Shown piece by piece: positions 21,818 to 32,149 of a stretch of DNA of 64,000 bases (positions are counted from its first letter, which is position 1; each line of letters opens with the position of its first letter). Below the pieces are notes generated by a model. The model was not told the origin of the DNA and searched no databases. It saw only the letters and a list, made by a program, of their open reading frames with translations. The DNA is from Clostridiales bacterium (GTDB lineage: Bacteria > Bacillota > Clostridia > Christensenellales > UBA1242), in the NCBI GenBank assembly GCA_015055515.1, contig SVIC01000004.1, positions 1 to 64,000 on the forward strand. Reading direction: 5' to 3'. A program made the position numbers and the translations under genes.

Positions 21818-21846
21818 TTGACTTTTCGTACTACTTGTCATATAAT
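21818..21846 (+). promoter_or_regulatory. Sigma-A-type promoter for the tyrS leader
   Basis: TTGACT - 17 bp - TATAAT. Confidence 0.8.
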
Positions 21847-21868
21847 AGGGACATATTTAGGAGATATT

Positions 21869-21916
21869 ATGAGACATTTAATTGCAATAACTTCATATTA
21901 TTACTACTACAGATAG
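21869..21916 (+). CDS. tyrS leader peptide MRHLIAITSYYYYYR
   Basis: ATG AGA CAT TTA ATT GCA ATA ACT TCA TAT TAT TAC TAC TAC AGA TAG, preceded by 'aggag' RBS and a promoter, followed by attenuator hairpins and tyrS. Confidence 0.8.
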   Translation: MRHLIAITSYYYYYR

Positions 21917-21965
21917 ATTGCTATATGTAGAAGTTTTTGCATGTATTATATAATTAACATAAAAC

Positions 21966-22004
21966 ATCTGTCATATAGCATTACACTATGTGGCAGATTT
22001 TTTT
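21966..22004 (+). terminator. Attenuator terminator 1 (segments 1:2)
   Basis: ATCTGTCATATAG / CTATGTGGCAGAT, 13 pairs (2 G-U), followed by T7. Confidence 0.8.
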
Positions 22005-22014
22005 ATTAAATTTT

Positions 22015-22053
22015 AATCTGCCAATAGCAAAATTAATATGGCAGATTTTTTTA
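22015..22053 (+). terminator. Attenuator terminator 2 (segments 3:4)
   Basis: AATCTGCCA (22015-22023) / TGGCAGATT (22039-22047), followed by a T run. Confidence 0.75.
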
Positions 22054-22171
22054 TTAAAAAAAGGAAAGGTAATTATTATGTGAATTATAAAACTATACGC
22101 CCAATCAAATGGGCAAAATATAGATAGAGAAATTAATTAAATATGTTACTATATATTATAAGGAGATAGAT

Positions 22172-23410
22172 ATGGAATTTAGAAATAACGCTTTTGAGCA
22201 ATTAGAAAATCGTGGTTTTGTATTCCAAACCACACATTTAGAAGAATTAAAAACAAGATTAAGAGAAAAACCTATCACATTCTACATAGGTATAGACCCC
22301 ACAGCCGATGACTTGCATATAGGGCATTTCTTCGGACTACAAATGGCTAGAATTTTGCAAGACTGTGGGCATAGATGCATAGTGCTAGTGGGCGGTGCCA
22401 CAGCATTAATTGGAGACCCTACCAATAAGTCTGACATGAGAAAAATGCTCTCTAAGGAAGAAGTAGCCAGAAATGCAAAAGAGATAAGCAGTATAATAAA
22501 AAGATTTGTACGAACAGATGGAGACAACCCAGCCATTGTGGTTGACAACGCAGACTGGCTGAAGCCTATATCTTACATCGACTTTTTGCGTGATATTGGA
22601 TCGAACTTCAATGTCAATGAAATGCTATCAAAGGACCTATATAAGAATAGATTAGAAAAAGGTGGCTTAACATTCATGGAACTAGGCTATATGCTGATGC
22701 AATCTTTTGACTTCGTACACCTAAATGATAAATACGACTGCATATTACAAATCGGTGGATCCGACCAATGGGGCAATATATGTGGTGGCGTAGAACTATC
22801 TAGAAAATTGAATTTCAAAGATGGTAGCGAGAGACCTCTAATGATGGGTCTAACCTGCCCTCTACTAACCAATGCCGAGGGTGTTAAGATGGGCAAGACA
22901 GAAAAAGGCACACTATGGGTGTCCAGAGAAAAAACCTCTGCGTTCGAATTCTTCCAGCACTTTGTTAATTGCCTAGATGATGATGTAGAGAGACTGCTAA
23001 GATTTTTTACCAACATCGATGTAGAAGAAATTAAATCAATGTGCAAGGACGACATTGTAAAGGCAAAGAAACTAATGGCATTCGAAGTAACAAAACTAGT
23101 ACACGGAGAGGATGAAGCATTGAAGGCAGTTCAGACAGCAAAGGATCTGTTCGAAAAAGGAAATATCAATACAGAAAATATGCCAACCGAAATAATCCAA
23201 AATGTTGGACAAATAAATATATTAGACTTCCTATCCTCGCTATCTATTATTAAGTCTAAAAGCGAAGCGAGAAGACTAATAGAGCAAGGTGGAATAGTAA
23301 TAGATAATATTAAAAGAGCGGATATCAATGAAATGCTAAATCTAACAAAAGACCAAGAGATAATAGTAAAGAAAGGAAAAAAGACTTTTGTAAAAATCGT
23401 TGTAAAGTAA
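22172..23410 (+). CDS. tyrS: Tyrosyl-tRNA synthetase
   Basis: 'YIGIDPTADDLHIGHFFGL' (HIGH), 'QIGGSDQWGNI', 'KMGKTEKGT' (KMSKS-like), C-terminal S4 domain. Confidence 0.96.
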   Translation: MEFRNNAFEQLENRGFVFQTTHLEELKTRLREKPITFYIGIDPTADDLHIGHFFGLQMARILQDCGHRCIVLVGGATALIGDPTNKSDMRKMLSKEEVARNAKEISSIIKRFVRTDGDNPAIVVDNADWLKPISYIDFLRDIGSNFNVNEMLSKDLYKNRLEKGGLTFMELGYMLMQSFDFVHLNDKYDCILQIGGSDQWGNICGGVELSRKLNFKDGSERPLMMGLTCPLLTNAEGVKMGKTEKGTLWVSREKTSAFEFFQHFVNCLDDDVERLLRFFTNIDVEEIKSMCKDDIVKAKKLMAFEVTKLVHGEDEALKAVQTAKDLFEKGNINTENMPTEIIQNVGQINILDFLSSLSIIKSKSEARRLIEQGGIVIDNIKRADINEMLNLTKDQEIIVKKGKKTFVKIVVK

Positions 23411-31661: not shown

Positions 31662-31893
31662 TAAAAAAATTCCTTAGCAAAAACAAGATTTCGCTAAGGA
31701 AATTATACCACTTGTTAATGCCCTTGGAGCCATCACTCCTCACTTCTATAACGGGAAGTCCCGGCATGGCCTACTATGTATTCAGCCAGCGACTCTGAGA
31801 GTGATAACGCACCTAAGACTATCGATTGCCTTGCACCACCCAGCAACTCTCTTAATGTCACATCTTACCACGCCTTGTCTCTCATAATAGCGT
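31662..31893 (-). promoter_or_regulatory. T-box leader of ileS (Ile specifier ATC)
   Basis: Stem I distal loop-like 'GGTGGTGCAAGG', specifier-like ATC at 31805-31803, 'AAGTGGTA' (TGGT complementary to ACCA), terminator TTCCTTAGCGAAA...TTTGCTAAGGAATTTTTT directly before the ileS RBS. Confidence 0.8.
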
Positions 31894-32149
31894 CTTTTTA
31901 TAACTAGATAAATATTCAGTTGTCGCATTGCACTCAGGTGGCGGATAAAATCGCCACCCTTGTACAAATAATAATGTCATAGATTACACTGGTAATAATG
32001 TATACGTCATATAATCCTAACACCCATATATTACATAATTTTGAAATAGTTGTCAAGTGTTTTTGTACTTTGCATTAACACACATGTTTTGATTAACAAT
32101 TACTTTATCTCTATATCCTAGTACAAATATAGTTTACACACTAATATTA

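Follow-up and report, generated by a model that had tools for sequence, protein, structure and literature searches.

A conserved Tyr-codon leader of clostridial tyrS genes, a probable ribosome-mediated attenuator with two serial terminators

In the trp, his, pheA and pheST attenuators of E. coli, which of several mutually exclusive hairpins forms depends on where the ribosome stands on a tandem of cognate codons. The T-box has its home ground at the tRNA-synthetase genes of Bacillota. In Bacilli, His-leader peptide attenuators replace T-boxes at hisS and hisZ (Naville and Gautheret 2010, PMC2965389), and leader peptides have been described for the his operons of the B. cereus group, Peptostreptococcaceae and Erysipelotrichales (PMC9413887). 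Leader-peptide attenuators also precede leuS and trpS in Streptomyces (PMC1262725), and the attenuator peptide of S. aureus ilv-leu comes with supporting mutants (PMC5794164).

Here, we analyzed the region upstream of tyrS in a 64,000-nt stretch of DNA (the window) from the 1.07-Mb assembly of a gut Clostridia bacterium. Among named records, those closest to it are assemblies of rumen and rabbit-gut Clostridia and of 'Christensenella sp.'. An earlier sequence-only reading had proposed Tyr leader-peptide attenuation for this gene. The proposal is supported by the conservation of the leaders, by the retention of their pairings and by a fitting ribosome geometry. From these comparisons, the 350 nt upstream of tyrS very probably constitute a ribosome-mediated transcription attenuator, in which one sensor of charged tRNA-Tyr would govern two serial terminators.

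All elements of that reading, namely the promoter, the Tyr-rich ORF, segments 0 to 4, the T tracts and a 20-bp repeat, were located at the same coordinates when the sequence was read directly, and they lie on the plus strand. The sigma-70-type promoter (21818-21846) consists of TTGACT (21818-21823) and TATAAT (21841-21846) at a spacing of 17 nt. It was the top plus-strand match in a promoter scan, agreeing with 11 of 12 consensus positions, and the aligned relatives have a TATAAT-like box at a similar spacing. Downstream are the Shine-Dalgarno (SD) motif AGGAG (21859-21863) and a 15-codon ORF, MRHLIAITSYYYYYR* (21869-21916), which runs from the ATG at 21869 to the TAG at 21914-21916 and contains five consecutive Tyr codons, TAT TAT TAC TAC TAC (21896-21910), the proposed sensor. 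Segment 0 (GCTATATG, 21920-21927) is an 8-bp complement of CATATAGC (21972-21979) in segment 1 (21966-21979). Segment 1 is the 5' arm and segment 2 (21986-21999) the 3' arm of terminator 1 (T1, 21966-22004), which has a 13-bp stem (21966-21998) followed by a T tract. The TGGCAG of segment 2, whose core is TGGCAGATT at 21991-21999, pairs with segment 3 (AATCTGCCA, 22015-22023), identified from the sequence and from its pairing in the leader alignment. Segment 3 also pairs with segment 4 (a second TGGCAGATT, 22039-22047) to form, with another T tract, terminator 2 (T2, 22015-22053). The copies of the 20-bp direct repeat are at 21991-22010 and 22039-22058, and the pairings 0:1, 1:2 (T1), 2:3 and 3:4 (T2) make up a mutually exclusive chain. 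The gene itself (22172-23410, plus strand) encodes, according to a Pfam domain search, a full-length tyrosyl-tRNA synthetase (PF00579, E 3.9e-72, SYY C-terminal domain and S4 domain).

A terminator scan found one plus-strand site with a 13-bp stem and a T run versus 0.1 expected over both strands. The leader region folds with a z-score of -4.8, none of 100 shuffles being equally stable, and the chain of repeat, complement and repeat with T tract recurred in only 2 of 5000 dinucleotide shuffles. The Tyr run is a different matter. Runs of four Tyr codons are not rare in this AT-rich genome (40 matches), and hence the run alone proves nothing; it is the SD motif, the fixed position and the conservation of the leader ORF that make it credible.

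Between terminator 2 and tyrS, the window also carries a remnant of a second small ORF, recognized by comparison with the related leaders of the same class (class 1, described below), together with a GCCC...GGGC hairpin (22078-22114, plus strand). In the other 17 of 18 class-1 leaders this ORF is SD-led, encodes a Tyr-Ala pair (mostly YAxxGV) and spans an ACGCCC..GGGCG hairpin. In the window it has shrunk to ATG-TGA, and its hairpin is still present.

The sequence and structural features expected of an attenuator are all found in this leader: a short ORF behind an SD motif, containing consecutive cognate codons, an intrinsic terminator, predicted from sequence, ahead of the gene, a mutually exclusive antiterminator with covariation and, for footprints of 12-16 nt, a stop codon placed so as to hide the antiterminator strand. 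We propose that when Tyr-tRNA is ample, the leading ribosome would complete the 15-codon peptide, sit at the stop codon and hide segment 0. Segment 1 would then pair with segment 2 to form terminator 1, and a polymerase escaping it would meet terminator 2, the 3:4 hairpin. When Tyr-tRNA is short, the ribosome would stall on the Tyr codons and leave segment 0 to pair with segment 1. Segment 2 would be freed and would pair with segment 3, so that both terminators would be broken and tyrS transcribed. What we infer in this scheme is that the ribosome stalls, that the helices fold in this kinetic order and that tyrS expression responds.

Relatives of the leader were gathered within the same Clostridia family by searching for tyrS and for the Tyr-codon motif. 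Runs of four or five Tyr as the sole criterion were dropped; some pattern matches were UvrB (SYYDYY) or unrelated ORFs. The search yielded 17 further distinct leaders of class 1, whose tyrS genes are 75-84% identical to that of the window, and four leaders of class 2, also upstream of tyrS, with an identity of about 47%. Absence of the Tyr ORF or of the pairing from homologous leaders had been named beforehand as an outcome that would speak against attenuation, and it did not occur: the 21 further distinct tyrS leaders keep the 15-codon ORF. In all 22 leaders, the ORF is exactly 15 codons long, the Tyr run occupies codons 10-14, an SD-like purine motif precedes the ORF, and its stop lies 1-5 nt before the segment 0 core CTATATG. 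The run reads YYYYY, YYYCY or YYGYY, with four or five of the five Tyr kept in every leader, and the N-terminal half of the peptide is variable. Such a fixed ORF geometry fits a sensor of ribosome position, which would need it, whereas a riboswitch would not. In an order-wide search of 396 genomes, the homologous leader was confined to this family.

Two further observations concern the surroundings of these leaders. One genome (G201) has an orphan leader (L074) that has lost its stop codon (YYYYYIERYM*) and has no evident promoter, and only a C-terminal fragment of its tyrS is left. In seven leaders (L002, L035, L036, L039, L040, L068 and L080), a promoter-like TTGAAN-16/17-TAWAAT can be seen by eye just upstream of tyrS, right before the tyrS SD motif in class 1 and after the terminator in class 2; it perhaps provides basal expression that bypasses the attenuator.

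The pairings were scored on an alignment of the 18 class-1 leaders, the window included. Helices 0:1 and 2:3 are paired in 100% of the cells and the two terminator helices in 95% (1:2 in 93.5%, 3:4 in 97.9%), whereas partners slid against each other as a control pair in only 20-54%. One leader (L056) shows a coordinated change, in which G has taken the place of A in segments 0 and 2 and C that of U in segment 1. In another (L003), the same base-pair position has changed together in segments 1, 2, 3 and 4. The overall covariation is modest because most alignment columns are invariant, and each of these two-sided changes occurs in a single sequence. Judging from the alignment, the four-segment change in L003 would nevertheless be difficult to account for without a chain of alternative pairings.

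We also modelled the position of the ribosome, using 3' footprints of 12-16 nt. Over this range, a ribosome at the stop codon leaves at most three of the seven core nucleotides of segment 0 free, and a ribosome stalled at Tyr codon 1 or 3 leaves all seven free. Before segment 2 emerges, the mean probability of the 0:1 helix is 0.98 with the stalled ribosome versus 0.00 with the ribosome at the stop, although this contrast, like that in geometry, is partly a consequence of the assumed footprint. At the T1 decision, the mean equilibrium probability of the terminator over the leaders is 0.99 at the stop versus about 0.45 when stalled. The sequence-only reading had suggested folding with a ribosome footprint as a check. 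The window's own leader departs from this mean: here, equilibrium folding gives T1 a probability of 0.88-1.0 even with a stalled ribosome, and no readthrough is predicted on stalling. Since T1 wins at equilibrium, the switch in the window must rely on kinetic, co-transcriptional folding. In this model, it must be assumed that 0:1 forms first and lasts past the T tract.

The window leader contains one more helix, a possible protector hairpin (21883-21941, plus strand), in which the region of codons 5-9 (21883-21894) pairs with the stretch 3' of segment 0 (21930-21941). It is part of the minimum-energy structure, and its own arms form a duplex of -14.0 kcal/mol versus -11.6 kcal/mol with swapped partners. 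In the folded state with no ribosome, 0:1 is not clearly blocked. A role for this hairpin is plausible from the folding, with weaker evidence than there is for the other helices.

The explanation that competes best with the proposed double switch is a simpler attenuator, in which only 0:1 and 1:2 (T1) alternate and the 3:4 hairpin terminates constitutively or as a backup, escaping control through 2:3. We regard it as unlikely. The 2:3 helix has only 6 bp in most relatives, and at equilibrium terminator 2 stays likely with a stalled ribosome (mean 0.71). The class-2 leaders, which keep segments 0 and 1 and the 0:1 helix and have rearranged terminators downstream, speak for both sides. Two of them (L068 and L080) have a single U-tract hairpin, as the simpler scheme would have it. 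In the other two (L077 and L078), the 1:2 hairpin lacks a T tract, and a separate terminator lies downstream, the 5' arm of which is able to pair with segment 2; these leaders therefore need the 2:3 helix. A further genome (G016) has a Tyr leader of simpler build, with a single terminator (L004). Against the simpler scheme stand also the complete retention of 2:3 in class 1 and the concerted alteration of all four segments in L003. Furthermore, a constitutive terminator 2 would shut off tyrS from the window promoter.

A second alternative, which we consider very improbable, is that the conserved SYYYYY(I/K) motif is a nascent-chain arrest peptide or a general sensor of translation inhibition rather than a sensor of tRNA-Tyr. 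Leader peptides that respond to translation inhibitors do exist in Bacillota, as at erm and cat, and S-Y5-I/K is conserved as a protein sequence. However, Tyr is the very amino acid that the downstream synthetase handles, the N-terminal half of the peptide is free to differ from class to class, and YYGYY and YYYCY are tolerated. In addition, separate His-codon leaders precede hisS in the same family.

The weakest alternative, a T-box or another tRNA- or ligand-binding riboswitch with an incidental small ORF, can draw on the T-boxes of eight other tyrS genes in the family and of thrS, pheST and ileS in the window genome, but it is highly improbable given that the tyrS leader matches no Rfam model at gathering scores, neither the T-box covariance model (RF00230) nor the amino-acid leader models (Trp, His, Leu, Thr, Phe), that the 600 nt upstream of tyrS contain no TGGNACC-type antiterminator bulge (TGGTACC-type included), and that all leaders have a 15-codon SD-led ORF that a riboswitch would not require.

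The T-box comparison places the attenuator in its family context. Of the eight tyrS T-boxes, two were above the gathering score and six more were identified by E-value, the motif also being searched; family tyrS genes that lack the Tyr leader often carry one. These genes bear out, within the same family, the initial statement that tyrS is typically under T-box control, and the initial view that no T-box signature is visible at this locus agrees with the searches above. Leader-peptide attenuation was likewise rightly called an unusual mode, yet the replacement of T-boxes by leader peptides has been published for hisS (PMC2965389) and his operons (PMC9413887). In the window genome, a whole-genome search found T-boxes at thrS, pheST and ileS only. 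The one at ileS is a sub-threshold match (58.9 bits; 31681-31897, minus strand) directly upstream of the gene.

In the TyrS tree, peptide leaders occur on three branches, one of which is nested among T-box TyrS proteins (one gene, L038, has only 14 nt of upstream sequence, and its leader status should be left uncounted). The window tyrS shares 81% identity with that of another genus versus 48-49% with those of its genus-mates, and by sequence it falls into a TyrS clade that is foreign to the genus. A mis-binned contig was considered and rejected: ileS, on the same contig at a distance of 9 kb, shares 86-87% identity with that of three species of the window's genus and only 37% with that of genome G023. 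Two genomes (G021 and G023) hold both kinds of TyrS, and their second TyrS genes gave no T-box match. The foreign clade is probably explained by a transfer of tyrS together with its leader or by differential loss of a paralog.

Candidate leaders of a similar kind were observed at other genes. In three genomes (G080, G102 and G017) of one genus of the same family, His-codon leader peptides followed by hairpins precede hisS (L130/L113, L131 and L141, with peptides MKYYQIHHHHSVL, MKNYISNHHHSK and MKNNRTHHHSK). They emerged from a screen for His runs, most other matches of which were due to chance; a screen for Trp runs gave no useful information, since most occurrences of TGGTGGTGG read as Gly-rich coding sequence. 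In other Clostridia families, leaders rich in Tyr and Phe, with peptides including MKNMFFAAEYYYYYFFFMDKKE and MKQFSANFAYNYYYYYHNER, precede DAHP synthase genes (L153/L162, L159, L163, L165, L171 and L175), and in L153 and L159 a prephenate dehydrogenase gene comes next. In another genome (L150 in G927), a leader-like ORF, MKRRFFYYYYYYFSPAVECCAANI, and a terminator-like hairpin precede the gene of an ABC substrate-binding protein. Taken together, it seems likely, if far from certain, that Tyr leader attenuation occurs here and there in Clostridia as a layer of control that has yet to be described. On tyrS, it would take the form of the two-terminator device, which would have replaced T-boxes and moved with its gene. 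Other families would have devices of their own on a transporter gene and on DAHP-synthase/prephenate-dehydrogenase operons, and hisS in the family of the window would have a His version.

As far as the sequences can tell, the tyrS leader is a real, conserved ribosome-mediated attenuator of a known mechanistic class, with a new specificity, target and layout. Rfam and a literature search whose reach excluded most subscription papers gave no Tyr-specific tyrS leader with one sensor and two terminators. To our knowledge, neither a Tyr-specific tyrS attenuator nor a double terminator of this kind under a single sensor has been described. Within one family, tyrS is under a T-box in some genomes and apparently under an unrelated, codon-counting sensor in others, the RNA logic of which is kept base by base. 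This makes the family a natural system for studying how sensors are replaced and whether gene and sensor travel together, and the tandem terminators are a compact arrangement for switching tightly in response to a single input.

Among the known systems, the hisS/hisZ leaders of Bacilli (PMC2965389) also exchange a T-box for a leader peptide with cognate codons at a Bacillota synthetase gene, but they concern His in Bacilli rather than Tyr in Clostridia, and no report of a fifth segment or second terminator was found there. The his-operon leaders (PMC9413887) share three to five consecutive cognate codons, a terminator and an antiterminator, also in Bacillota; unlike the tyrS leader, they are His-specific and control a biosynthetic operon. 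Streptomyces leuS and trpS (PMC1262725) have a classical attenuator on a tRNA-synthetase gene, with Leu and Trp codons and in Actinobacteria, and S. aureus ilv-leu (PMC5794164) is a case of leader-peptide attenuation in Bacillota that differs in responding to branched-chain amino acids and in its RNA anatomy. The T-box (RF00230) on the tyrS genes of relatives has the same target gene and the same signal, uncharged tRNA-Tyr, but binds the tRNA directly without translation. Finally, compared with the E. coli trp, his, pheA and pheST attenuators, which have four segments and one terminator, the tyrS leader adds segment 0 and places two terminators in series.
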